DNA of 64,000 bases from Stentor roeselii. Its lineage: Eukaryota > Ciliophora > Heterotrichea > Heterotrichida > Stentoridae. A model generated the notes under the pieces. That model was not told where the DNA came from. It searched no databases and worked only from the letters and a program-made list of their open reading frames with translations. This document shows, one piece after another, positions 31,418 through 64,000 of this stretch (its first letter is position 1; every line of letters starts with the position of its first letter). A program made the translations under genes and the position numbers. The stretch spans positions 166,165 to 230,164 of the forward strand of contig RSEH01000020.1 in NCBI GenBank assembly GCA_006503475.1. The letters are read 5' to 3'.

Positions 31418-32869
31418 ATGCAAAAGCCTCTGGAAGTAAACACGTCTTTAAGTCGTGGCTGTGCAGATGTCCTTCACGAAATCATCTTAAAAAATAACTG
31501 GAGAGAAGTTCAAGGAAACCGAGGAAAACTGATCTGGTACGGCCTGGCAATAAAACCTGAAGACCTCGAGTCCTCAAACAGAAAAATAGTAAACCGTATT
31601 CCTGGACTTGAAGAAACTTCTCACAAGCGTCCTCTAGGTGAATTACTGAAATTTACCCACAAGTACTTCCCTGAGCATTTCAACATCTTTCCTCGAACCT
31701 TTCTATTACCTGAAGACTTCGAAGAACTTGAAGAGCTGACTAAAAACAAGTCATCATATTTCATAGTAAAACCAACGAGTGGCAGTCAAGGCGAAGGAAT
31801 TTTCATAATAAACAAAGCAAGAGATCTTCAAAACTGCACTCTTAAAAACTGGTCAGACCTGGTAGTCCAAGAGTATCTCCACCCGCCGCTTCTACTGAGA
31901 CAGAAGAAGTTCGACTTGCGGATTTACGCTTTGATCACTTGCATTGACCCACTTTGCGTTTTTATCAACGAAGAAGGACTAGCTCGGTTTTGCACTGAAG
32001 ACTACGAAGCTCCAAACAATTCTAACATTTCCAATGCTTTTATGCATCTTACCAACTATTCCTTGAATAAAAGAAGCACGAAATTCGTTCATACTGATGA
32101 AATCACTGAAGTTAATGAAGGCTCGAAACAGACTTTGCAAAGCTTTTATGCTGAACTTGAACAAAACGGTTACCCGGTGGATGTGATCAAGAGAAATATC
32201 AAGGATTTAGTTGTAAAAACACTTCTGGCAATACAACCTGCTATGAACTTACAGCTTAAGTCTTACCTAAAACTTGCGAAAGTTGAGAAATTGAGATATT
32301 TTCATATTTTAGGAGTTGACGTACTTCTCACTCAAGATTGTCGTGCCTGGCTTCTTGAAATCAATGCGAATCCCAGCTTAAGAATTGATTTTGAGCAGGA
32401 GGTCAAACCTGGAGTCATGCAGAGCTTTCCAAGTGAACTTGATCGATATGTTAAGACTAAGGTTGTTGAAGATGCTATCAAAATCGCGGTTATGAAGAAA
32501 AGAGAACAGATTGCTTTAGATCAGTTTGAAAGCTATGAAAGGATTATTCCTGGGAATGGAGAACTTGGAGAATGCTCTGATGTGCTTATGAAGATCTTTC
32601 ATGTATTTAGTGGATTGACTGATATTAAGAACCCATCTGTTGTTCCTCTTGGGAAATTTAGGAAAATATTTCAGAAGGTCAGAGGAAGACTTGCGAAAGA
32701 AATAGTTTCTGCGGACTTTGATATCATTTATATTAAAATATTGAAAAAATTTGGATGCAATCAGATGGGATATGTGTCTTTTGTTTCGGCTATTGAAGAA
32801 ATTGCGAGTAAGTTTTTGAATGGAACTTCGAAGGAAAATCTTGTATATGTTCTTAATTTAATTGCATAG
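31418..32869 (+). CDS. tubulin-tyrosine-ligase-like (TTLL) enzyme
   Basis: A 483-residue TTL-domain protein. ATP-grasp marks are present in order: KPTSGSQGEGI (Lys118), VVQEYLHPPLLL and KFDLRIYAL near residues 150-168, MHLTNYSLNK around 210, and the metal-binding LLEINANPSL with Glu314 and Asn316. The family ligates amino acids, most often glutamate or glycine chains, to tubulin tails in cilia and cortical microtubules. Which amino acid is added cannot be told here. The 120 residues after the core are helical and may bind microtubules. The ATG at 31418 follows TCTAAAATAA; another ATG at 31405 is in a different frame. This is the last gene of the dense left block. The frame is intact, with stop TAG. 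Confidence 0.92.
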   Translation: MQKPLEVNTSLSRGCADVLHEIILKNNWREVQGNRGKLIWYGLAIKPEDLESSNRKIVNRIPGLEETSHKRPLGELLKFTHKYFPEHFNIFPRTFLLPEDFEELEELTKNKSSYFIVKPTSGSQGEGIFIINKARDLQNCTLKNWSDLVVQEYLHPPLLLRQKKFDLRIYALITCIDPLCVFINEEGLARFCTEDYEAPNNSNISNAFMHLTNYSLNKRSTKFVHTDEITEVNEGSKQTLQSFYAELEQNGYPVDVIKRNIKDLVVKTLLAIQPAMNLQLKSYLKLAKVEKLRYFHILGVDVLLTQDCRAWLLEINANPSLRIDFEQEVKPGVMQSFPSELDRYVKTKVVEDAIKIAVMKKREQIALDQFESYERIIPGNGELGECSDVLMKIFHVFSGLTDIKNPSVVPLGKFRKIFQKVRGRLAKEIVSADFDIIYIKILKKFGCNQMGYVSFVSAIEEIASKFLNGTSKENLVYVLNLIA

Positions 32870-35412: not shown

Positions 35413-38400
35413 ATGGCAAAATTATTATTGAAAGTGATCTTTGTTCTTTCTTCCAAGTGGTTAGAGTATCGATTTAATCGTGATTATGGAAATTTCTTTT
35501 TTGACTATTCCCTAAATGGTCGATATGCTGAAAATGGAGGGAAGTCAGGAACAACCCGGGCTAAAATCACAGATAGAGGAATATACTTTCTTAATGATGA
35601 TAGTCACGTAAAAATCTACAACTCAGAGTATCTACCATCAACATTTAGCATCTCAGCTTGGCTCTTCACTCCAGACACATACTTTTGTATCTTTTATAGT
35701 AAAAACAACAGCTATGGAATATCATTTGGCAGATATAATACAGGTGATTCTTTCAGATTATATATAAACTCAGATGATAATACTGGTGATAATAATTGTT
35801 TTCTTCCAAGTAATTTCTATTCAGATCTATGGAAATTTCTGACTCTTGTTTATTCAAGTGGTGCTTTTAAGGGATATATTAATGATAAACTATGTTTAAC
35901 TAAATCTTTTAGTTATTCACAATCCAGACCTCATGAAACTGGTATAGGTCCAAGCGAAATATGGAAAGTCTTAACATGCATTATATGGAACTTTGTGATC
36001 TTAGACGAAGAAATAAACTTTTCCAAATATCTTCAACTAGCAGGTTCATCAAACTGTCTTTTAGGGCCAGGGACTTGTAATCCATGTGATACTGCCTTTA
36101 TTGATCCTATTTTAGGCACGGGGTGCATTTCAACCTCGATGGATATAAAAAAAAATGCTTTAGGAATAGCCTGTGACCATGAAAGCTGCACCAAAACAGT
36201 TTCTCTTAACTGTTCGAATTCTAGTTTATTTTGCACTTACGACCAAACCACCCACTCTTGTTTCATTAAAACTCTCACTAGTTCTTTATCCTCTGAACCA
36301 AATACTCAAATCGCCTGTACCTGCGAAAGCCAATACATCAGCCGAGACAATAAATGCTGCGACAGTCATTGTTCAAGCTGCGATTATTTGAACACTTGCA
36401 AATCATGCTATTCAAATAATGCATTTTACAATCTTTCGAAAAATTGCAATTGTTTGGAAGGTTTTTACAGTAAAGGGAACTTGGAGATAAAGACAATTGT
36501 GAGCCTTGTAGTGTAGGGTGCCCTAGCTGCAATTCAACACACTGCTTACGCTGTAAGGATCATAATTCTTATTTAAATGGTTCAGAATGCGTCTGTAATC
36601 AAAAATATTTTGGAAGCCCTGATAACTGCGCCCCTTGTTTAGAAGAATGCGAAAGTTGTATTACTTCTGAATCGTGTTTGTCTTGTGTTGATAAAAGTTT
36701 GAAGTTAAATGAAGGGAGATGTGGATGCACTGTTGGATACTATGATGACGGAGTGAATTGCTCTTTATGCAATCCTTCATGCAAAAACTGCAGCTCGTCT
36801 ATATTGTGTCATGAATGTAAGGTGGAAAAAGCTGTTGTTAATCAAGGAGACTGCATTTGTGAGAAAGGATTTTTTGGAGATGCTTCAATTTCTTGTCAGC
36901 CTTGTGATCCAGTTTGTTCTAGTTGCTTATCTTCAAGTGAGTGTCTTGGATGTTCTGATGGAAATAGTGAGTTAAAAGATAGAAAATGTGAATGTTTTAC
37001 TGGATACTTTAAAAGTGAATCTTTTACTTGTTTAAAATGTCATGAAGAGTGCCTTACATGTGAAGTTTATGATTATTGCACTTCGTGTAAAGCTCTGAAT
37101 TCGATATTAGTTGATGGAAAATGTCTTTGTGATGAGGGTTTCTGGAGCTCTTCTTTGCTAGATGATAAATATTCGTGTAATAGATGTCATGAGATGTGTG
37201 TGAGTTGTTTAAATAACTCTTTTTGTTTAAACTGTACTTCGAATTCAACCTTGGTCGATGGGAAATGTGAATGTCTTCCAGGATTCAGGCTTGAACAGAT
37301 GAAATGCATTCAGAGATACTTTCATGGGACTTCATATGTGGAAAACTCGTATATTGTTTGGATAATTTTCAATGAAACTTTAATCTCGGAGTTTCAAGAA
37401 AATGACTTTTCTGTCCATTTAGAATCTGAAAAAATTGAATATATTTTAATCAAAACAGATGGAAAAATTAAGTATGGTATTGAGCCAAAACTGTCTGGAA
37501 TTCAGAAAGATTCGATCATTGAAGTAAAAATAAATTCTAAGGTTTTTTCAGTGTTTGGCTCAATTCTATCTACATTTATATTTAGAGAAAAAATTAACTT
37601 TAGTGAAGAAAATTTAGTTGAGCAGAAATATGAAACAGAAGCTAGTCTTCAAAATGAAGCCTCTAAAAAAGTCTCTTCAGCTGGAGCTATTGCAGCTCTT
37701 GGAATTTCATTGATTACTGTTGATCCATCGAGTTTTTTTAACTTTATTAATACAGCTGAAATGATCTACCCAGTTTATCTGTTAAATCTAGAAATAAACC
37801 CAATACTTAGAGAGTTTCTATTGGGCATCAGAATTCAAAATTCAATTCCTAATCCTTTTGAATATATCATCGATGAACGTAAAGGGATTATACTTTCGAA
37901 AAAGATGGTAAAGTTTGGATTTAAAACTAGTTTACTCATCATCAATTCAGGGATTTTGTTTTCTATTCTTATCATAAATCTAATAATGCTTACAGTTTCT
38001 TTCTTAGCAAATTGTATTCCGATATTAGGTTCTAAAGCCAAGTCATTTATCTCCTGGATAATCTTCTCTTCCCTTCTTAAACTATGGGTTCAAAGTTTTT
38101 TTGAACTAATGATTACAGCAAGTATTTCAATTAAAAACAATATAAACTCAACAGATATTCAAATAATTGACGTAGGTTTATTTTTAGTTGTTATTGTAAT
38201 TTTCGAATAGATCACTGAGTTCCTCATGACGTTCTTGCTATTATATCTCATCAGAACAAGAAGAAGAATTGAATCCGATGATAAGTCAGAAGAGTTTGAT
38301 GAAAAATATTCGATTTTCTTCAAAGATTTCAAAGCAACTGAATATAAACATTCAACATTTTACCTCGTGTTTATTTTAAGGAGAGCAGTTATTGCGATCA

Positions 38401-38798
38401 TTACCCAAACAGAGTTATCTGGATTAATTCAACTGGTAATTATGCTTGGATCTAACTTTTTAGTATTTCATAATCAGGTTTTGGTTTATATCATTTATTC
38501 AAGGTCCTTCAAGAACTGGGTTTTTACTGTTTATCACGCTGCTATCGAAGGATTTATTGTTTGCTTTAATATAATTTTGATTATTGGGCTATGCTTAGGA
38601 AAGCTCTATACTCTTGGACTTATATCTAATATATGCATTTATATTATTTATATATGCTGGAGTATTAATGCACTTTTAAGCTTTTATTCTTTATTAGTGA
38701 ATCTGTCTGAAAAGATAAAGAAATTGAGGATATTCATGACCAAGAGAGTTAGAGATAAGAAAGTTACTGCATACACAGTAGATACGAAAAATAACTGA
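35413..38798 (+). CDS. lectin-like, Cys-rich, multi-TM surface protein (three exons)
   Basis: Joining three frames by a probable 17-nt intron (36470-36486) and a clear 15-nt intron (38196-38210) gives a 1117-residue protein; the summed exon length is an exact multiple of three. Layout: hydrophobic N terminus (residues 1-15, likely signal); a ConA/laminin-G-like beta domain to about 205; furin/EGF-like Cys-rich repeats from about 215 to 625, each with C..G[FY][FY]...C..C; an extracellular stretch; then six or seven membrane segments from about 830 to 1085; and a short basic cytosolic tail. The shape resembles ciliate furin-repeat membrane proteins with a TRP-like membrane part. Surface sensing or adhesion is inference. 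The gene stands alone in AT-rich DNA and starts directly after TATAATATATA. Stop TGA. Confidence 0.82.
36470..36486 (+). other. probable 17-nt intron (or frameshift) in the Cys-rich gene
   Basis: The upstream frame ends 30 nt further on, while the Cys-repeat continues in another frame. GTAAAGGGAACTTGGAG begins GTAA and ends AG; removing it gives GFYNKDNCEPC, which matches the repeat spacing elsewhere (for example KYFGSPDNCAPC). A shift of two modulo three is needed, so a 15- or 16-nt intron cannot do it. A one-base sequencing or mutational indel is the alternative. Confidence 0.55.
38196..38210 (+). other. 15-nt intron in the Cys-rich membrane gene
   Basis: GTAATTTTCGAATAG separates two frames that together form one hydrophobic segment (FLVVI-ITEFLMTFLLLYLI). 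Unspliced it has an in-frame TAG at its end. The size is identical to that of the two MFS introns. Confidence 0.88.
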
Positions 38799-42825: not shown

Positions 42826-44397
42826 TTATGAATTACATCTAAACAGAAAAGTATCATTATTTGAAATAATAAACTCAGAGTCATTTTGATTAATATTTAA
42901 AACAAACTCAAAATTCTCAGAAATAAGCCTCCTTTTTTCAGGCAAATCTAATACCCTTAAGGCTAAATAATTAAAACCTTGTGATGTAATCAATCTTCGT
43001 GTGGTAATTATATTCTGATCTATTTCAATAACTTGATTTTGAGTCAATATTCTTTGATTAAAATTATGCTGAAGTTGATTAAAACTTGTAGTCATATTAT
43101 TTAATTCCTGCTGCATTCTATTATTTTCATTCTGAAGTTGATCACGACTCATTCTTATATTATTTAATTCCTTTTGTATTCTATTTTTTTCATTCTGAAG
43201 TTGATCGCGACTCATCCGTATATTATTTAATTCCTGCTGCATTCTATTATTTTCATTCTGAAGTTGATTAAAACTTGTCCTCATATTATTTAATTCTTGC
43301 TGTATTCTATTTTTTTCATTCTGAAGTTGATCAAAACTTGTAGTCATATTATTTAATTCCTGCTGCATTCTATTATTTTCATTCTGAAGTTGATTAAAAC
43401 TTGTCCTCATATTATTTAATTCTTGCTGTATTCTATTTTTTTCATTCTGAAGTTGATCGCGACTCATCCTTATATTATTTAATTCCTTCTGCATTCTATT
43501 TTTTTCATTCTGAAGTTGATTGCGACTCATCTTTATATTATTATTTTCATTCTGAACTTGATTACGACTCATCCTCATATTATTTAATTCTTGCTGTATT
43601 CTATTATTTTCATTTTGAAGTTGATCAAAACTTGTCCTCATATTATTTAATTCCTGTTCCTTTCTATTTTTTTCATCCTGAAGTTGATCAAAATTTGTCC
43701 TCATTTTATTTAATTCCAGCCCCTTTAAATTAAATTCATCTTTAAGTTCCTCGTTGCACTTCAATAATCCAATATATTTTTCTTGAAGTTCATTTAATTC
43801 AATGATCTTATCATTTAATATATTCCAAGGATTACCAGAGTCTCTGTTTATTAGAGAAGATTCATTATCAATTACATTCGATTCATCATTTTTTATAATT
43901 ACTTGAAACTCATCCTTCAATTTATCTTCATAAATAGATTTAGTGTTTTCATAGTACAGAATTTTTTCAAGTAATTCTGTCTGGTACTCATCACATTTTT
44001 TAATTTTTTCTTCTAACTCTAGTTCTTTTTCTCTTATTTTACTTGTAAAAACATCATGGCCAAAATCATTGAAAATGAATTCCGCTGCATTCATAAGCGA
44101 AGGTTTTATAAGTCTATTAAAGGCACTTAGTTTAACTTCAGATAGACCTGAAACTTTATTCCTTTCCTTAAGGTCCTTGATTTCTTGATTTAATGCCTTT
44201 TTCAATACAGTGATCACATCATTCATTTCTTCTGATATCTGAATAATGCAACTGTTGATTTTTGAAGTAATTGAGCTTTCATTACGAAGCTTCCATAGTT
44301 TCAGCTCATTGCACTCCCTAGAGTAACTAATTGGATTCAAAGATTCAATACTAAGAGATTCAGCTGGATTAGAGTTACCTTCAGACATGGAAGACAT
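42826..44397 (-). CDS. coiled-coil protein built of 21-residue tandem repeats
   Basis: The frame can be extended to a TTG at 44409, but the ATG at 44397 is the better start: it is preceded directly by TCTATAAAA. The product is 523 residues. Residues about 1-220 are helical and acidic with no known domain. Then come about eleven copies of a 21-residue unit of the type ELNNMRTSFDQLQNENNRMQQ, with the variants RMSRDQ/RTSFNQ/TTSFDQ and EKNRIQ/ENNRMQ. Twenty-one residues are exactly three heptads, so a long parallel coiled coil is expected. The unique C terminus (about 75 residues, EFVLNINQNDSEF) looks globular. The function is probably structural or tethering; no homologue is recognised. One unit is shortened (NENNNIKMSRNQ). 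Confidence 0.82.
   Translation of the reverse strand: MSSMSEGNSNPAESLSIESLNPISYSRECNELKLWKLRNESSITSKINSCIIQISEEMNDVITVLKKALNQEIKDLKERNKVSGLSEVKLSAFNRLIKPSLMNAAEFIFNDFGHDVFTSKIREKELELEEKIKKCDEYQTELLEKILYYENTKSIYEDKLKDEFQVIIKNDESNVIDNESSLINRDSGNPWNILNDKIIELNELQEKYIGLLKCNEELKDEFNLKGLELNKMRTNFDQLQDEKNRKEQELNNMRTSFDQLQNENNRIQQELNNMRMSRNQVQNENNNIKMSRNQLQNEKNRMQKELNNIRMSRDQLQNEKNRIQQELNNMRTSFNQLQNENNRMQQELNNMTTSFDQLQNEKNRIQQELNNMRTSFNQLQNENNRMQQELNNIRMSRDQLQNEKNRIQKELNNIRMSRDQLQNENNRMQQELNNMTTSFNQLQHNFNQRILTQNQVIEIDQNIITTRRLITSQGFNYLALRVLDLPEKRRLISENFEFVLNINQNDSEFIISNNDTFLFRCNS
43052..43718 (-). repeat. 63-bp tandem repeat array inside the coiled-coil gene
   Basis: About eleven units of 63 bp, very similar in DNA (the antisense pattern TTCATTCTGAAGTTGAT recurs in nearly all). 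Two sub-types alternate, which suggests duplication of blocks of two or more units. One unit has lost part of its length but stays in frame. Confidence 0.88.
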
Positions 44398-44409
44398 TTT
44401 TATAGACAA

Positions 44410-46702: not shown

Positions 46703-48700
46703 CTAAAAAAGTGTCCTAGTGTGTTTAAGTGATGATAAAATCAACGATTCTCTGCACAATTTCATACTTCTATTGTTAGTGCAAAGTACTTTAAAACTTT
46801 CAACACTATTGGATATTCTTGAATTTTTCAAATCTATCAAAGAATAACTGGATTGAATATTTTTAGATAGGATAAAATTGCAAAACTTAAAACCATAAAA
46901 TTGAAGTCCACAATTTCTTCCTATTTTCAGTAGTTTATCGAACTTATAAAAAACAAAAAGATCCCAATCAGAATCAACAAACATAAAAGAATTTGATGAA
47001 AATATTCCTGAATATATTCTTTTTTGAAGGGATAGTAAACTTTTAGATGATCTCAAATCAATCATTTCTGATTTTTGTTCAGTAGAGAAACAAATAATCT
47101 TTAAATCTCTTGATAAACAAACAAAATAAATACAAGATTTTTCAAATAAATACCTGCTCTTTATGTCAAGTCCACCACAATCTATAACAAAAATATCACC
47201 TTTAATTGTTCCACATAGTAAAATCGACTTCAAAAGACACAAACTTGTAATCCGACAACCAAACTCTATCGATTTTATATCTTTCAATGATTTTAAACTG
47301 AAAAAGTAAATTTTATCAAATCCATAAACAATCAGATTCAGTTTTAATGATAAACACAAGCAAAATTGATAAATTTTGTTGAGTTTAGTTGATGTTATTG
47401 TTTTTGAAGAACAAATATTGAGTAGTTCAATCTCACAATTATCCCCTCCTAAGTAAAGGTTTTTGTTTGAAATTTGAAGACAAAAAGCTCTATATTTTAA
47501 GTGATCAAATGATTTTTTAACTTGAAACGATTTTGAACACCAAAGCTTTATAGAATAGTCTAAAGAGCATGTTGCAAATATTCGAGTGTTTTTGCAAAAA
47601 TCGTTTGAATTTATTTCAGATGAATGAGCTTTTGAACTGCTCAACAAACATAGAGTTTTCGAATTTATAAACTGTACGCATCCATCTTCATGTCCAGTCA
47701 TTAGGATCTCATGATCTTCATCAAAACTACTGCAAACAACACTACCTTTAAAATGAGCATTTTTTAAAGGGTTTAGTTTGTTTAACTCCAACAAACTAAT
47801 AATTCCATCTTCACAAACAAAAACAATTTGTTGAGTTTTGTTTTTGAGTAATACGAATCGAACTGCTGAAGTTGCTTTAAACAAATAAATAAGTGAAGGG
47901 TGAGCAAAGTTCCAAATTCCAATAGTTGCATCCTGGCATCCGCTCAAAAATGTTGTTGAATTTTTTCTAAACTTTAAAGTATTTATTCGATATTTATGGC
48001 CATGAAAGACTGTTTTTAGTTTTTTTGTTTTAACATTCCATAAACAAATCAAGTTATCACAACCACCTGATAATGCGAAATTGGATGAAGAATCAATATC
48101 AATAGCCCAAATTGTTGACTTATGACATGAAAGGGATGCGATGTTTTGAAGAGTTCGCGCATTCCAGAACCTGATTTTTGAATCGTAGCCCCCACTCATT
48201 AAAATTTTCTTATTTTCTGAGAGACGTAATGATATAATAAATTGACTTCTATTCTGAAGAAAATAATTAAAATTCATATTGCTTTGTTGTTTTAAGTATT
48301 TAAAGATTGTAATTTCTTTTAATGGTTGTTTGTTAAATACGTCAATTATTTTTAAAAAAGAATTTGAATTATGTTTTATATCATAGTGGTTAGGAATTTC
48401 AGAATAAACAATAATTTTACAGGTTTTTATACGCAAAGAGATATCTTTTTCAGAAGCATTATAGAATAAGTATTGTGGTAGAGTTACCCAGAACCAAATT
48501 AATTCGTATAGAGATAACTTTAATAACTGGCATCTTTGAAGTATATTTTTTTCGAATTTGATTATTGGATTTGGTGATTTATAAGTTTCTATAGTATGCT
48601 TTATAGGTTTTTTTAAGTGAACTTTTAGATCTTTTGGTGAAATATGATTTATTTGGCAACTGCACTTATATGTCCTTTTTTCTGACGTCAGATTTTCCAT
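46703..48700 (-). CDS. WD40-repeat protein (divergent repeats)
   Basis: A 665-residue protein. The N terminus contains a Cys/His group (YKCSCQINH) followed by a helical region to about residue 150. From about 160 onward come roughly ten divergent WD40 repeats. The best are LMSGGYDSKIRFWNARTL, ALSGGCDNLICLWNVKTK, FLSGCQDATIGIWNF and FATCSLDYSIKLW; later ones are weak. One or two seven-bladed propellers acting as a protein-interaction platform are expected. Unlike the gene at 57010, the repeats are not similar at the DNA level, so they are old. The start ATG follows GTTTATAAAT. The gene lies alone in AT-rich DNA. Function unknown. Confidence 0.8.
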   Translation of the reverse strand: MENLTSEKRTYKCSCQINHISPKDLKVHLKKPIKHTIETYKSPNPIIKFEKNILQRCQLLKLSLYELIWFWVTLPQYLFYNASEKDISLRIKTCKIIVYSEIPNHYDIKHNSNSFLKIIDVFNKQPLKEITIFKYLKQQSNMNFNYFLQNRSQFIISLRLSENKKILMSGGYDSKIRFWNARTLQNIASLSCHKSTIWAIDIDSSSNFALSGGCDNLICLWNVKTKKLKTVFHGHKYRINTLKFRKNSTTFLSGCQDATIGIWNFAHPSLIYLFKATSAVRFVLLKNKTQQIVFVCEDGIISLLELNKLNPLKNAHFKGSVVCSSFDEDHEILMTGHEDGCVQFINSKTLCLLSSSKAHSSEINSNDFCKNTRIFATCSLDYSIKLWCSKSFQVKKSFDHLKYRAFCLQISNKNLYLGGDNCEIELLNICSSKTITSTKLNKIYQFCLCLSLKLNLIVYGFDKIYFFSLKSLKDIKSIEFGCRITSLCLLKSILLCGTIKGDIFVIDCGGLDIKSRYLFEKSCIYFVCLSRDLKIICFSTEQKSEMIDLRSSKSLLSLQKRIYSGIFSSNSFMFVDSDWDLFVFYKFDKLLKIGRNCGLQFYGFKFCNFILSKNIQSSYSLIDLKNSRISNSVESFKVLCTNNRSMKLCRESLILSSLKHTRTLF

Positions 48701-51680: not shown

Positions 51681-54032
51681 CTAAACCTTTAAAACTCTTA
51701 TATCCTCTTCATTTGATTCAACAGCAATAAACTTTCCACTACTTGTGATAGACAATGAGTGAATCTCTTGTTCAAATACTTCAAAAGCTTTCAATTTTTC
51801 ACTTCTTCCTACTTCCCACAATAAAACAACCCTGTCACTCGACCCACTCACAACAAGCCTGCCATCTCTAGAAAAAGCTGCTGCGATAACCCAGCTGGAA
51901 TGGCCCTTAAAACATTGAATTTCATTTCCATGCAAATTCCAAATTTTAACACAACCATCATCACCTCCACTAAGAATAAACTGTGAATCATTAGAAAAAC
52001 AAAGAGTTCTTATCCAATTCTTATGCGCCTTGAAACTTAAAATTCTTTTTGCCTGATCAACATCCCACAAATTCAAAATCTTTCCATTTTCACTAACAGC
52101 ATATTTTTTATTTTTTGAAAAACTGATGGGTTCATAACTTTTGTACTTGTCATTTGAATTAATTTCTAGATAATCCTGCAAATTCCAGATATCACAATGG
52201 TATCGATAAAAGATTGATAAAAATTTACCATTCATTGAAATTTTCTTAATACAAGATTTTGAGTCAGTGATGAATTCTCTAAATTTTCCAGTAAGGTTCC
52301 AAAATTCCATATTGCAAAATTTGGTGATTAAATAGTTTTCAGAAATCCATGCACTTTTATAGTTACTGTTAATTTCAGGATTAAAGGTAAATTCTAGAGA
52401 TTTATCAAAAATATTCCAAATATTAGAAATGCTTTCATCTGATATACCAATGATCGATTTCTGATCTCTTGTAAAAAAAATAGATATAATTTTTCCATTT
52501 TCTACTTTAAAACTAGATACTTCACATTTATGCGAAATACTCCAGACTCCAATATAACCATCTTCAAACCCGCAAGCAATAAAACTGCAATCAATTGAAA
52601 ATGAAGCGATTGAAGTATTGATATCTCCTCTTTCAACATCAAAGACCTTGAAATTTTCCATAATATTCCAGATACTAAAACAAGTATCACTGGTAACAAT
52701 AACAAGAGAGAAATCATTTGATATAGAAAATTTTTCAGAAGTTCTTTTTAAAGAATTAACTCGAAAAATAACTTCGTTGTTTGTTAAGTTCAAAATATTT
52801 AAATTTTCCTTTTCTTGAGTTAGTAAAAAACGATGATCCTCTGAAATCTGAAAAGAATAAATTTTTGATTTAATCTCAGTTATAAAAAACTCAACTCGTT
52901 TTTCCTTCATGTTGAAAATTTGTAGGCCTTGAGAATAGCTGCTAAGCCCTACATATTTTCCTTCGTGTGATATCGAAACATGGTTAATATCTTCAGAGTC
53001 TAAATTTTGAAAGTAGCTAATTTGTTTAGGTATCTTAGAGATCTTCCAAATATAAAGACTATTATCAACACTACTACCAATCAAGGTCTTTTGATCAGGA
53101 CTGAAATAAATCTGGCATTTAAATGAACTATGCTCAAAAATGATTTTTGTTACTTTTTTCCTCTCGATATCGAAGAGTCTAATAAACTCATCATATGTCG
53201 TAAATGCAAGGATCTTATTGTCAGGTGTAAATGAAACTGAAAAAATACTATCCTGATGCTTAAAAGTAAAAACTTCACTTCTATCATCAAGATTCCAAAT
53301 ACTTAAACTAGAAAGAAAAATACCCGCAGCAAATTTACCATTTTTCGAAATAGCGACAGTACCAACCTGCTTCTGACTTCCAATCAATCTGACTTCCTGT
53401 CTCCTGGATTCAAAATTCCATAAAATAATCGACCCATCTCGTGACCCGCTGATAAACCTGCCATTAGGACAGCATTTTATTGACATCACAATCCCTTCAT
53501 GTCCATTAAGTCTAAACTCTTCTCTTTTCTCAAAGAAACTCCAAAAAACTATAGATTTTTCCTCTGGATATGCAACAAATTTTCCATCTGAAGTAAAAAT
53601 GGCTCGATAGGACCTTTCGGATGAGATCGGTATTCTTGAATATAAGGTTTTTTGGTGAAAATCAAGGATTTCTAGGAAATTTGAATACCCGCAGAGGAGA
53701 TAGTCCCCGCTTGGAGAAAAATTTAAAGATTTGAGATCTTTTGGTATTTTGATATTTGGCTCGAATTGATTTTGGGGAATGTTTAGGACTTTTATTACTT
53801 CTGAACCTCCCAGTAATGCGAATATTCCACAAGGTGAGACTACTAATGCTACCACATTTCCGATCCTATAGATTCGATGTGCTGTACAATTTGAAATGTA
53901 TTCCTTGTTTTGAGAATTTTTTATAATTTGGTAAAGATTTTTTTGGGTGTTGTTTTGAAGGACTTGACTTTTTGATTTTTTATGTCTCGAATCAGATGTA
54001 TGTTGTGATTTCGAAAGCTGAAATTCGCTCAT
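51681..54032 (-). CDS. WD40-repeat protein, about 13 divergent repeats
   Basis: A 783-residue protein made almost entirely of WD40 repeats after a short basic Ser/Gln leader (residues 1-45). Good repeats include FISGSRDGSIILWNFESR, ILSGGDDGCVKIWNLHGN and VVSGSSDRVVLLWEVGR near the C terminus; several central ones are degenerate. Two stacked propellers are likely. The family acts as a scaffold; no enzymatic domain is fused. The start follows TTAATTATTATA. It is flanked upstream by a decayed partial copy of itself (54200-55260) in the same orientation, so this locus has been duplicated. Repeats differ strongly from each other in DNA, unlike the gene at 57010. Confidence 0.83.
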   Translation of the reverse strand: MSEFQLSKSQHTSDSRHKKSKSQVLQNNTQKNLYQIIKNSQNKEYISNCTAHRIYRIGNVVALVVSPCGIFALLGGSEVIKVLNIPQNQFEPNIKIPKDLKSLNFSPSGDYLLCGYSNFLEILDFHQKTLYSRIPISSERSYRAIFTSDGKFVAYPEEKSIVFWSFFEKREEFRLNGHEGIVMSIKCCPNGRFISGSRDGSIILWNFESRRQEVRLIGSQKQVGTVAISKNGKFAAGIFLSSLSIWNLDDRSEVFTFKHQDSIFSVSFTPDNKILAFTTYDEFIRLFDIERKKVTKIIFEHSSFKCQIYFSPDQKTLIGSSVDNSLYIWKISKIPKQISYFQNLDSEDINHVSISHEGKYVGLSSYSQGLQIFNMKEKRVEFFITEIKSKIYSFQISEDHRFLLTQEKENLNILNLTNNEVIFRVNSLKRTSEKFSISNDFSLVIVTSDTCFSIWNIMENFKVFDVERGDINTSIASFSIDCSFIACGFEDGYIGVWSISHKCEVSSFKVENGKIISIFFTRDQKSIIGISDESISNIWNIFDKSLEFTFNPEINSNYKSAWISENYLITKFCNMEFWNLTGKFREFITDSKSCIKKISMNGKFLSIFYRYHCDIWNLQDYLEINSNDKYKSYEPISFSKNKKYAVSENGKILNLWDVDQAKRILSFKAHKNWIRTLCFSNDSQFILSGGDDGCVKIWNLHGNEIQCFKGHSSWVIAAAFSRDGRLVVSGSSDRVVLLWEVGRSEKLKAFEVFEQEIHSLSITSSGKFIAVESNEEDIRVLKV

Positions 54033-57009: not shown

Positions 57010-57012
57010 ATG
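57005..57012 (+). promoter_or_regulatory. TATAA element abutting the start codon
   Basis: TATAAATG: the TATAA at 57005-57009 touches the ATG at 57010. The same arrangement, with a gap of 0 to a few bases, is seen at 39961, 62599, 63037, 26841, 35413 and on the minus strand at 44397, 48700 and 54032. A core promoter or transcription-start element so close to ATG would imply a very short leader. Confidence 0.55.
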
Positions 57013-60000
57013 ATGGAATCTGGTTCAAGCAGAGTAGAGAGAGAAGATATACTCAAAATTTCGGGAGATAATGATGATAGTAATGGAGCTGAGCTTCAAA
57101 AGACGATATATAAGTACAATAAAAGATATTCGAAATTCAAAGCAAAAACATATTCATGGCCTATGAATGTCTTTGAAAAAGGAGGACATTCAGATTGGGT
57201 TTCTTGCTGTTCTTACTCTCCTGATGGAAATTATCTGGCAACTGGATCAAGAGACAACACAGCTAAAATTTGGAATATCAAAGAGCAAAGAGAAGAGTTC
57301 TCTTTAAATGAACATTTAAGCTTAATAAACTGCTGTTCTTACTCTCCTGATGGAAATTATCTGGCAACTGGATCAAGAGACAGCACTGTTCAAATCTGCA
57401 ATATAAAAGAGAAAAGACAAGAGTTCAGACAGAATGGGCATAAAGGTTCAATAAACTGCTGTTCTTACTCGCCTGATGGAAATTATCTGGTAACTGGATC
57501 AGATGACAAAACAGTTAAAATCTGGAATATCAAAGAGCACAGAGAAGAGTTCACTCTCAACGGGCATTCAGATTCAATAAATTGCTGTTCTTACTCGCCT
57601 AATCGAAATTATCTGGCAACTGGATCAAGAGACAAAACAGTTATAATCTGGAATATCAAAGAGCAAAGAGAAGAGTTTACTCTCAACGGACATTTAGATT
57701 CAATAAATTGCTGTTCTTACTCGCCTGATGGAAATTATTTGGCAACTGGATCAAGAGACAAAACAGTTAAAATCTGGAATATTAAACAGAGAAAAGAAGA
57801 GTTCACTCTTAATGGGCATACAGGTTCAATAAACTGCTGTTCTTATTCTTCTAATAAATATTATCTGGCAACTGGATCAATAGACAGAACAGTCAAAATC
57901 TGGAATATAAAAGAGCAAAGAGAAGAGTTCACTCTTAATGGGCATGCAGGCTCAATAAACTGCTGTTCTTACTCGCCTGATGGAAATTATCTGGCAACTG
58001 GATCAAAAGACAAAACAGTTAAAATCTGGAATATCAAAGATCAAAGAGAAGAGTTCACTCTCAACGGACATTCAGGTCCAATAAATTGCTGTTCTTACTC
58101 TCCTGATGGAAATTATCTGGTGACTGGATCAGATGATAACACTGTTAAAGTTTGGAATATCAAAGACCAAAGAGAAGAGTTCAGTCTCAATGGACATTCA
58201 GATTCTGTGTGTTGCTGTTCTTACTCTCCTGATGGAAATTATCTGGCAACTGGATCAGATGACAAAACAGTTAAAATCTGGAATATAAAAGAGCAAAGAG
58301 AAGAGTTCACTCTCAACGGACATTCAGATTCAATAAATTGCTGTTCTTACACTTCTGATGGAAATTATCTGGCAACTGGATCAAGAGATAAAACAGTTAA
58401 AATTTGGAATATTAAAGAGCAAGGAGAAGAGTCCACTCTCCATGGGCATTCAGATTCGATAAATTTTTGTTCTTACTCTCCTGATGGAAATTATCTGGTG
58501 ACTGGATCAGAATACGAAACGATTAAAATCTGGAGTATAAAAGAACAAAGAGAAAATTTCACTCTCTATGCAAATTCAGATTCAATAAAATGCTGTTCTT
58601 ACTCTCCTGATGGAAATTATCTGGCAACTGGATCAAGAGACAACACGGTTAGAATCTGGAATATCAAAGAGCAAAGAGAAGAGTTCACTCTTAATGGACA
58701 TTCAGATTCGGTATGTTGCTGTTCTTACTCTCCTGATGGAAATTGTCTGGCAACTGGATCAATAGACGGGAAAGTTAAAATCTGGAATATTAAAGACCAA
58801 AGAAAAGTGTTTACTCTGAATGGACATTCATATTGGGTATCTTGCTGTTCTTACTCTCCTGATGGAAATTATCTGGCAACTGGATCAAGAGACAATACAG
58901 TTAAAATCTGGAATATAAAAGAGCAAAGAGAAGAATTTACTCTCAATGGAAATACAGATTCAATAAATTGCTGTTCTTACATTCCTGATGGAAATTATCT
59001 GGCAACTAGATCAACAGACAACACGGTTAAAATCTGGAATATAAAAGAGCAAAGGGAAGAGTTCACTCTTAATGGACACGCAGGTTCAATAAATTGCTGT
59101 TCTTACTCTCCTGATGGAAAATATCTGGCAACTGGATCAAGAGACAAAAGAGTTAAAATCTGGAATATAAAAGACCAAAGAGAAGAATTCACTCTCAATG
59201 GACATTCAGGTTCAATCAATTGCTGTTCTTACACTCCTGATGGAAATTATCTGGTGACTGGATCAGACAACTATAAATTTCATATCTGGAAATTAAAAAA
59301 GCAAAAAGTGGGTTTATATATGAATGAGAATAGCGATATAAGCATCAATTATAAACTTGAAGACTTGACAAAAACTTTTAAACCACAAAAATATTCAATT
59401 ACTAATATCAGAAAGCCTACTAACGATGGATTATATACTATTAATTTGAATGATAATGGCAGTATTTCATTTTGGAACATATTAGAAAGTAGAGAAGATT
59501 TCATTTTATGTTATGACAGCTCAAAAATTATAGGTTTATATTTTATAGAGAATGAAAAATATCTAGTAGCTGTATACAGAAGTAATATTTTTATTATAGC
59601 TTTTTGGAACAAATTGTTATATATTCTACATGAAAATCTTTTTAAGTGTATCATTACAAGAGCAAATATTAAATTACTATTTAAAGATGCAAAAGTAGCT
59701 ATATTTATTCAAAAATACTATAATGAATATTATAAAAGCAAAGTTAAAATTGATGAGCAACTACAATTGATTGTAAGTAAGCTTCTCATAAAATATGATT
59801 TTCAAAAAAGATCTAAGACGGCTCTGAAATTATCAATATATCTTGTTAAATTTGCATATTTAAATTATAGGATTAAACATCTTAACGATGGAGCTGAAAG
59901 AATCCTTATGAAATTTTATTCCATAACCAAAAATAAAAGGCTTAATATCGAATGGATATATGAATCACAGATATTAATATTTTTATATGATTCAATAGTA

Positions 60001-60063
60001 GAATATGATGCTAAACAAAAGATAGGGATTTTATTAGATCAGCTGATACAATTAAGTAGTTAA
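57010..60063 (+). CDS. WD40 protein with 17 near-identical 42-residue repeats
   Basis: A 1017-residue protein. Residues 1-57 form a charged leader with a basic end (KYNKRYSKFKAKTY). Residues 58-771 are exactly 17 WD40 units of 42 residues without any insertion or deletion, each based on NGHxxSINCCSYSPDGNYLA followed by TGSRDxTVKIWNIKEQREEF. Variation is concentrated at the residues after GH (SD, SG, TG, AG, KG, SY) and at the TGSxDx position (RD, DD, ID, KD, EY, TD). One or two degenerate units follow (GSISFWNILESRED), then a helical C-terminal region of about 180 residues with no known domain. WD40 propellers bind other proteins. Homogenised repeats with variable loop positions suggest a recognition surface under change, as in fungal incompatibility proteins (inference). 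The start abuts TATAA. Confidence 0.92.
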   Translation: MMESGSSRVEREDILKISGDNDDSNGAELQKTIYKYNKRYSKFKAKTYSWPMNVFEKGGHSDWVSCCSYSPDGNYLATGSRDNTAKIWNIKEQREEFSLNEHLSLINCCSYSPDGNYLATGSRDSTVQICNIKEKRQEFRQNGHKGSINCCSYSPDGNYLVTGSDDKTVKIWNIKEHREEFTLNGHSDSINCCSYSPNRNYLATGSRDKTVIIWNIKEQREEFTLNGHLDSINCCSYSPDGNYLATGSRDKTVKIWNIKQRKEEFTLNGHTGSINCCSYSSNKYYLATGSIDRTVKIWNIKEQREEFTLNGHAGSINCCSYSPDGNYLATGSKDKTVKIWNIKDQREEFTLNGHSGPINCCSYSPDGNYLVTGSDDNTVKVWNIKDQREEFSLNGHSDSVCCCSYSPDGNYLATGSDDKTVKIWNIKEQREEFTLNGHSDSINCCSYTSDGNYLATGSRDKTVKIWNIKEQGEESTLHGHSDSINFCSYSPDGNYLVTGSEYETIKIWSIKEQRENFTLYANSDSIKCCSYSPDGNYLATGSRDNTVRIWNIKEQREEFTLNGHSDSVCCCSYSPDGNCLATGSIDGKVKIWNIKDQRKVFTLNGHSYWVSCCSYSPDGNYLATGSRDNTVKIWNIKEQREEFTLNGNTDSINCCSYIPDGNYLATRSTDNTVKIWNIKEQREEFTLNGHAGSINCCSYSPDGKYLATGSRDKRVKIWNIKDQREEFTLNGHSGSINCCSYTPDGNYLVTGSDNYKFHIWKLKKQKVGLYMNENSDISINYKLEDLTKTFKPQKYSITNIRKPTNDGLYTINLNDNGSISFWNILESREDFILCYDSSKIIGLYFIENEKYLVAVYRSNIFIIAFWNKLLYILHENLFKCIITRANIKLLFKDAKVAIFIQKYYNEYYKSKVKIDEQLQLIVSKLLIKYDFQKRSKTALKLSIYLVKFAYLNYRIKHLNDGAERILMKFYSITKNKRLNIEWIYESQILIFLYDSIVEYDAKQKIGILLDQLIQLSS
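57181..59322 (+). repeat. 17 x 126-bp tandem repeats coding for WD40 blades
   Basis: From GGAGGACATTCAGATTGGG to the end of unit 17 the array is exactly 17 x 126 = 2142 bp. Units share long identical DNA stretches (for example TGATGGAAATTATCTGGCAA in most), including synonymous positions. This shows recent unequal crossing-over or gene conversion and not just protein-level selection. Confidence 0.95.
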
Positions 60064-63603: not shown

Positions 63604-63772
63604 AATTCAGGTGAAAAAGAATAAGATGGTGAAAAAAAACAAGAAAGTAATAAAAAGGGGAAGGTTGAATTAAAGAGATTGTAAGTGTTTATTGAGGTAT
63701 AAATGAAAAGGTGATCAAAATAAAGGTAAAAAAAACAAGAGTAAGAAAAGCAAAGTTTGTTAAAAAAATAAA
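63604..63772 (+). other. purine-rich A/G spacer
   Basis: Almost pure A and G with scattered T. In the B-box frame it would read as Lys/Glu-rich sequence interrupted by many stops. It leads into the 33-bp array. Confidence 0.4.
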
Positions 63773-64000
63773 GGTATTAAAAATGAAGACTGTAAAAGAA
63801 ACGAAGGTATTAAAAATGTAGCAAGTAAAAGAAACGAAGGTATTAAAAATGAAGGAAGTAAAAGAAACGAAGGTATTAAAAATGAAGACTGTAAAAGAAA
63901 CGAAGGTATTAAAAATGAAGACTGTAAAAGAAACGAAGGTATTAAAAATGAAGAAAGTAAAAGAAACGAAGGTATTAAAAATGAAGAGCGTAAAAGAAAC
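63773..64000 (+). repeat. 33-bp minisatellite, at least 6.9 units, runs off the window
   Basis: Units of exactly 33 bp begin at 63773, 63806, 63839, 63872, 63905, 63938 and 63971 (the last cut by the window edge). The unit reads GIKNEDCKRNE in one frame, which is open through every unit; the other frames have stops. Variation is limited to the GAAGACTGT part (GAAGGAAGT, GTAGCAAGT, GAAGAAAGT, GAAGAGCGT). It may be part of a gene that extends to the right. It is not telomeric. Confidence 0.9.

Follow-up and report, generated by a model that had tools for sequence, protein, structure and literature searches.

The closest described counterparts of the gene reported here are the HNWD genes of Podospora anserina (het-d, het-e and het-r), which encode fungal NOD-like receptors (NLRs). 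These also carry tandem WD40 units of 42 amino acids that vary in number and are exchanged; they likewise show diversifying selection at matching unit positions and unit counts other than multiples of seven, and ligand binding by HET-E has been modelled with a double propeller (PMC12222747). Here we describe a gene with such an array in Stentor roeselii, located on the forward strand at 57010-60063 of a 64,000-nucleotide window (GenBank GCA_006503475.1, contig RSEH01000020.1, positions 166,165 to 230,164). Judged from its sequence, we think it probable (roughly 0.57) that the product of this gene is a cytosolic WD40 receptor or adaptor with multiple blades, part of a ciliate recognition repertoire that is situated at contig ends and is probably subtelomeric. 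The best reading, by analogy, is that this repertoire would operate as the WD40 sensors of fungal NLRs do, but with no nucleotide-binding domain; both its ligand and its function are inferred. The gene (hereafter the window gene) is composed as follows, with dN/dS denoting the ratio of replacement to silent divergence:

57010..60063, forward strand: whole gene, kinase-less member of a ciliate WD40-array family, 1017 amino acids, intact
57010..57180, forward strand: N-terminal 57 amino acids, common to family members, median dN/dS among paralogues about 1
57181..59322, forward strand: array of 17 gap-free WD40 units of 126 bp, found by unit alignment and by Tandem Repeats Finder (TRF)
59197..59322, forward strand: unit 17, the last, 94.4% identical in nucleotides to the last unit of C476 (a paralogue of seven units), anchored edge of the array
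59323..60060, forward strand: C-terminal domain, residues 772-1017, no Pfam matches, present in dozens of loci and under purifying selection

The open reading frame (ORF) starts with ATG, ends with TAA and has no internal stop. An array of 17 units of 126 bp without any indel, as claimed by the first-pass annotation, is confirmed: the unit alignment covers residues 58-771 in units of 42 amino acids, and TRF independently reports a period of 126 with 16.4 copies and a score of 2788. The Pfam family PF00400 scores 706 bits in 17 stretches, with WD40 above the Pfam cut-off. Neither a NACHT or NB-ARC domain nor a HET effector domain was found in the window protein, either in the C-terminal 246 amino acids at E<=1 or in a whole-protein scan of which the best 25 of 59 families were all propellers (the N-terminal 57 amino acids are too short for NACHT or NB-ARC). 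This agrees with the earlier statement that no nucleotide-binding domain is fused. Since these scans revealed neither NACHT nor HET, we place the window gene outside the HNWD family although it resembles the WD40 sensor of HNWD genes. It differs from HNWD further in that the array is N-terminal and is followed by another C-terminal domain, a pseudokinase or a channel-like module, and in that the family exceeds the ten NWD genes, lies mostly near contig ends and belongs to a ciliate-like genome.

Other described systems are more remote. The best solved match of the window protein is 2YMU ('WD-40 REPEAT PROTEIN', E 8.6e-174), presumably of bacterial origin, which also has near-identical blades; its unit framework is different, however, and the match covers the array only, leaving the C-terminal domain unmatched. 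The rapidly evolving leucine-rich repeat (LRR) genes of Tetrahymena likewise form a large ciliate family of tandem repeats with pericentromeric and subtelomeric enrichment, but there the repeats are LRRs encoded in 90-bp exons between introns, and the location refers to germline (MIC) chromosomes (PMC6564038). WD40 and protein-kinase domains are joined or associated in PkwA (a PDB match) and in cyanobacterial and planctomycete WD40 kinases (PMC5587647), whereas the kinase-like domain of the present family is C-terminal, lacks the HRD Asp and the DFG Gly in all eight sequences inspected and is absent from the window gene. No report of such a family was among the matches listed in full-text searches of the open-access literature, a body that leaves most subscription papers and preprints outside; as far as these searches show, the occurrence in a ciliate, the modules at the C-terminus and the position near contig ends are new.

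The proposed recognition role rests in part on the distribution of replacements over the unit. Statistics were computed for 16 of the 43 family genes (those with 42-amino-acid spacing only and at least seven units, four of them cut by a contig end), comprising 176 units. The ratio of replacement to silent differences (pN/pS) was derived from Nei-Gojobori (NG86) counts, which ignore recombination, with the unit-wide silent rate (pS 0.198) as denominator. Calculated per codon, as the first-pass annotation had proposed, pN/pS is in excess at codons 24, 5, 8, 26 and 6 (3.05, 2.15, 2.04, 1.67 and 1.48, respectively). Since units are not independent we resampled over genes, and none of 2000 bootstrap replicates gave a value of 1 or lower at any of these codons. 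The recent pairs (77 within-gene pairs of at least 92% identity) yield 3.49, 2.55, 2.23, 1.54 and 1.96 in the same order, and the maximum over all codons in 60 runs of a neutral, AT-biased simulation is 1.36. Diversifying selection at the hypervariable unit codons is thus indicated by these counts. Variable codons had been noted earlier after GH and around TGSxD; the most variable ones of the family are 5, 6, 8, 24 and 26 and not just the two residues after GH; position 4 is also variable in the window gene taken alone. Together the five residues make up 163 distinct codes in the 176 units, and 15 in the 17 units of the window gene. In the channel-fused family described below (7 genes, 158 units, counting only units with the next unit at 41 amino acids) codons 6, 8, 5 and 24 rank on top, with pN/pS from 1.58 to 1.30.

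The variable codons were assigned to a propeller face by published positional rules, because AlphaFold2 models, made without an alignment, were too low in predicted local distance difference test score (mean pLDDT 41.6 for the window protein and 36.3 for residues 730-1017). PMC3419727 places the interaction hotspots at R1, directly following the first bulky residue in the bulge of the a-strand, at R1-2, two residues ahead of R1, and at D-1, just ahead of the tetrad Asp; in the family unit these correspond to positions 8, 6 and 24. In HNWD, codons 7, 9, 25 and 27 are under strong positive selection and flank the conserved 8 and 26; they lie in the d-a loop and the b-c turn, at the top of the propeller (PMC1805685). 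By the same naming, unit codons 5, 6 and 8 form the d-a loop and 24 and 26 the b-c turn. The HET-E repeat is printed in PMC12222747 with variable positions 10, 11, 12, 14, 30, 32 and 39, and alignment from GH to GH translates these to 4, 5, 6, 8, 24, 26 and 33 of the family unit. All five top codons fall within this set of seven (P 2.5e-5). The variable sites therefore match published top-face interaction positions and are not scattered at random, in line with the single face that had been expected.

The arrays also differ between paralogues. Set against C476, its nearest paralogue, the window gene is 91.8% identical in nucleotides where the C-terminal region is encoded, and the last units of the two agree at 94.4%, but the window gene has 17 units and C476 has 7. 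None of the six remaining C476 units finds a collinear counterpart; each best matches window-gene unit 9, 14 or 5, at 85-91%, and the paralogues C288 and C281_154 show the same behaviour. To judge from these alignments, the array is not passed on as one block with its 3' flank. For 81 of the 176 units the nearest neighbour lies in the same gene (mean of 11 and maximum of 22 after shuffling), and the remaining units find it in other genes. Linkage between sites drops with distance inside the unit, and adjacent units are most alike when pooled over the 16 genes (0 of 1000 permutations in either case). Neighbour likeness and linkage decay are what unequal exchange and conversion predict. The pattern of concerted evolution plus diversification put forward by the first-pass annotation is therefore supported at the sequence level, through within-gene clustering, recombination, diversifying selection and differing arrays with a shared 3' flank: the unit framework appears to be kept alike and recombined within and between arrays, and the residues predicted to face the ligand are diversified.

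Between units of the window gene the mean pairwise identity is 82.9% for nucleotides and 72.7% for amino acids. When units are delimited with one and the same hidden Markov model (HMM), the window gene reaches 74.5% in amino acids against 13-38% in five other WD40 genes of the genome (23-38% in three diverged relatives outside the window). Given these low values in other WD40 genes, unit likeness in the window gene goes far past what the WD40 fold demands, and such repetition sets this gene and its near relatives apart from the WD40 genes of the genome at large. Within the window two ordinary WD40 genes serve as internal controls, and TRF found no tandem DNA repeat in either of them:

51681..54032, reverse strand: ordinary WD40 gene, 783 amino acids, 23% between units
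46703..48700, reverse strand: ordinary WD40 gene, 665 amino acids, 13% between units

The high identity reported earlier thus stands, but its extension to silent sites was overstated, homogenization there being modest in this gene: silent sites (pS 0.24, dS 0.29) are more divergent than replacement sites (pN 0.15). Silent divergence in the window gene is the third highest among the 16 gap-free genes, and dS is lower in 13 of the 15 others (0.14 in C92); strong homogenization of the window gene was rejected on this ground. Identity to the consensus of the gene is 83.9%, with 10 of the 17 units at 85% or more. High internal conservation has been defined as more than 85% over at least 100 amino acids (PMC4986451), against which the window gene shows 72.7% as mean pairwise amino-acid identity and 83.9% to the consensus. 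The 60% internal-symmetry cut-off for highly repetitive propellers (PMC9218822) is exceeded by the 72.7-74.5% of our own measures, obtained with a different method.

The window gene is one of a large family located mostly near contig ends, a correction to the first-pass annotation. The whole protein has at least 116 matches in its genome, a lower bound since scoring covered 45 of 1079 candidates. Reading of family genes was confined to high-scoring places of this search; 45 ORFs were read and 43 counted as family (C92_5449 and C127_217848 were not counted). Gap-free family genes carry 7 to 17 units. The C-terminal domain alone gives 78 genome matches (50 at 49% identity or more), some of which are contig-end fragments or stop-bearing copies; the C-terminal region, described as unique by the first-pass annotation, is therefore a shared domain. 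Leaving out six genes that are cut by a contig end, 29 of 37 family genes are no more than 10 kb away from an end. Among genes whose contig measures at least 100 kb this holds for 21 of 27 against 2.9 expected (P 5e-16), and in 23 of the 27 the 3' end is directed to the nearest contig end. Stentor and Blepharisma share the same telomere repeat. It is reported for Blepharisma as CCCTAACA (PMC9942806), and (TTAGGGTG)n is found at several contig ends of the present genome, which fits the earlier guess that the DNA is from a ciliate. Across the contig ends inspected and the first 100 of 378 places with the telomere pattern, at least eight family genes have telomere repeats at their nearest end (C427, C146, C161, C476, C122, C80, C85 and C391), seven at less than 5 kb and C85 at 12.6 kb.

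Arrays of this kind seem to be joined to different C-terminal parts, namely the shared domain alone, the same domain followed by a pseudokinase, or a module that resembles ankyrin and ion-channel proteins, which the domain matches support. The C-terminal 246 amino acids of the window protein match no Pfam family at E<=1, and helices in its last ~145 residues appear in low-confidence models only. In relatives such as C92 and C71 the domain continues into a protein-kinase fold (Pkinase at 42.8 and 38.3 bits in these two scanned sister genes, cut-off 31.7); the window gene has no kinase. The HRD Asp and DFG Gly are missing in 8 of 8 kinase-like sequences (C71 by eye), by which motifs they would be pseudokinases, and a VAIK-like lysine is retained in 6 of the 8. 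A pseudokinase query gives 126 genome matches, many of them probably other kinases; 16 of the matches span at least 160 residues with no less than 52% identity. With one query, no pseudokinase remnant was found 3' of the window gene, the best match in the window being at 48509-48592 (E 0.28). When the C-terminal domains are placed in a tree with three diverged relatives as root, the 20 genes labelled kinase-less, the window gene among them, form one clade (local support 0.875; one of them, C453, was read only up to a stop), consistent with a single loss of the pseudokinase. Seven long genes (1746-2104 amino acids as read) bear the same kind of unit at 41 amino acids. In two of them the C-terminal part was scanned against Pfam; ankyrin appears in both and Ion_trans, among the matches listed, in C146 (20.9 bits, under the cut-off of 25; best PDB channel TRPV3, E 0.008); the other six match the C-terminal module of C146 at 56-74%. 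This module has 68 genome matches with long open frames, and WD40 arrays were seen on seven. The C-terminal domain is under purifying selection, with dN/dS above 1 in none of 66 pairs (median 0.55; 12 of the 16 gap-free genes, those with at least 230 amino acids of the C-terminus read). For the N-terminal region the median is 1.01, with 60 of 120 pairs above 1.

In the mechanism that we propose, stacked propellers would bind a variable protein or peptide ligand on their top face, comparable to the double-propeller model of HET-E, and the binding signal would be relayed through the C-terminal domain to a partner bearing a pseudokinase or a channel. The window gene, whose lineage seems to have lost the pseudokinase, would be best seen as an adaptor or decoy, since it has none. 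Candidate ligands are non-self, prey, a symbiont or an internal partner. It is possible, and we put it forward tentatively, that a heterotrich ciliate has an innate, NLR-like repertoire for recognition inside the cell without a nucleotide-binding domain, in which hypervariable chromosome-end arrays lead to a pseudokinase relay or to direct gating of an ion channel, and that the fungal code of non-self residues evolved here independently.

Several observations weigh against a recognition repertoire. Codon 1 has a pN/pS of 1.43, above 1 yet outside the HNWD set (with it included, 5 of 6 codons are within the set, about 1.4e-4 by hand); the cut at five codons was chosen post hoc with the ranking already known, and codon 26 in the channel-fused family is at 0.83, not above 1. 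Within-gene likeness of the window gene (82.9%) is barely above that to other family members (81.0%), and the window gene taken by itself gives no clear neighbour effect. Similarity is lower where the N-terminus is encoded (82.5% to C476 and 85.4% each to C288 and C281_154), so that 5' parts have perhaps been exchanged between genes instead of the array turning over fast in place. Stops occur in several family copies, C476 included. Contig ends have no telomere in 11 of 16 cases in one set (the end of the window's own contig included) and in 15 of 16 in a second set based on the last 50 bases only; as most inspected ends are without telomere, part of the end clustering may reflect assembly breaks in repeats. 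Finally, diverse hotspots have been reported for WD40 proteins of high repetitiveness in general (PMC5587647), so the principle is already known, and it need not mean immunity.

This last point also counts in favour of a family of scaffolds in which each paralogue is fitted to its own diversified host protein, giving insulated signalling wiring and no non-self recognition. The signalling-type modules of the sister genes (Pkinase; ankyrin and Ion_trans) and the conserved C-terminal domain under purifying selection would suit such scaffolds. Nevertheless, array length and unit order vary among paralogues with the same 3' flank, beyond what fixed wiring would explain, and clustering at contig ends is typical of contingency families. 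We therefore hold this explanation to be unlikely.

Alternatively, it might be argued that the family undergoes plain subtelomeric birth and death, with loops under relaxed constraint and variability without a selected function. Propeller repeats amplify easily (PMC9218822), some copies contain stops, and the N-terminal dN/dS is about 1 (median over 120 pairs). Relaxed constraint, however, is not expected to give pN/pS values of 2-3 (codon 24 stands at 3.05, and the neutral simulation never exceeds 1.36), nor does it account for nearly the same variable codons in two families or for the C-terminal domain, where none of 66 pairs has a dN/dS above 1, and this improbable explanation is already disfavoured. 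A surface antigenic-variation family, as in parasites with subtelomeric gene stocks, would share the position near contig ends but is scarcely credible and was set aside, as the N-terminus reads hydrophilic with neither a signal peptide nor a membrane span evident by eye, and combinations of WD40 arrays with a kinase-like domain or ankyrin are of the cytosolic type.

The genomic setting of the window gene is that of a contig end. The window comprises the last 64 kb of a 230-kb contig (genome 44.4 Mb, 522 contigs), and the gene lies 3.9 kb from the end, so that a telomere-proximal position is its likely, predicted place. A 33-bp tandem array of seven copies at 63771-64000 reaches the contig end, where no telomere was seen. 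Near window position 32000 the G+C content drops from 0.36-0.44 to 0.22-0.34 and long ORFs become fewer, which would suit the start of a subtelomere-like region about 32 kb long. The contig-end half also holds a second repeat-built gene, coiled-coil-like, at 42826-44409 on the reverse strand (63-bp tandem repeats with 88% matches by TRF; Filament match under the cut-off), and three successive ORFs at 35413-38798 on the forward strand, the first with a Laminin_G_3 match and the other two without a Pfam match. Housekeeping genes occupy 1-33000 (phospholipid-translocating ATPase, dynein heavy chain, pyruvate kinase, GH31 and tubulin-tyrosine ligase-like). The standard code fits the long ORFs, the dynein heavy chain of 4551 amino acids among them, and 21 ORFs end in TAG (10), TAA (10) or TGA (1); in Blepharisma UGA encodes tryptophan (PMC9942806). 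Telomere repeat and code together point to a Stentor-like heterotrich. Near the opposite end of the same contig (C127:3800-9000) lies a diverged WD40 gene that shares the C-terminal domain at 28.6% identity.

If the window gene indeed belongs to a recognition repertoire, the repeat homogenization and face-specific diversification known from fungal allorecognition would have arisen separately in a ciliate, in two protein contexts, and a hypervariable sensor fused with a channel-like module would represent a new output. The family would then offer a candidate cytosolic recognition repertoire for single-celled eukaryotes, and the way in which a protist discriminates between self, prey, symbiont and parasite would become directly testable.

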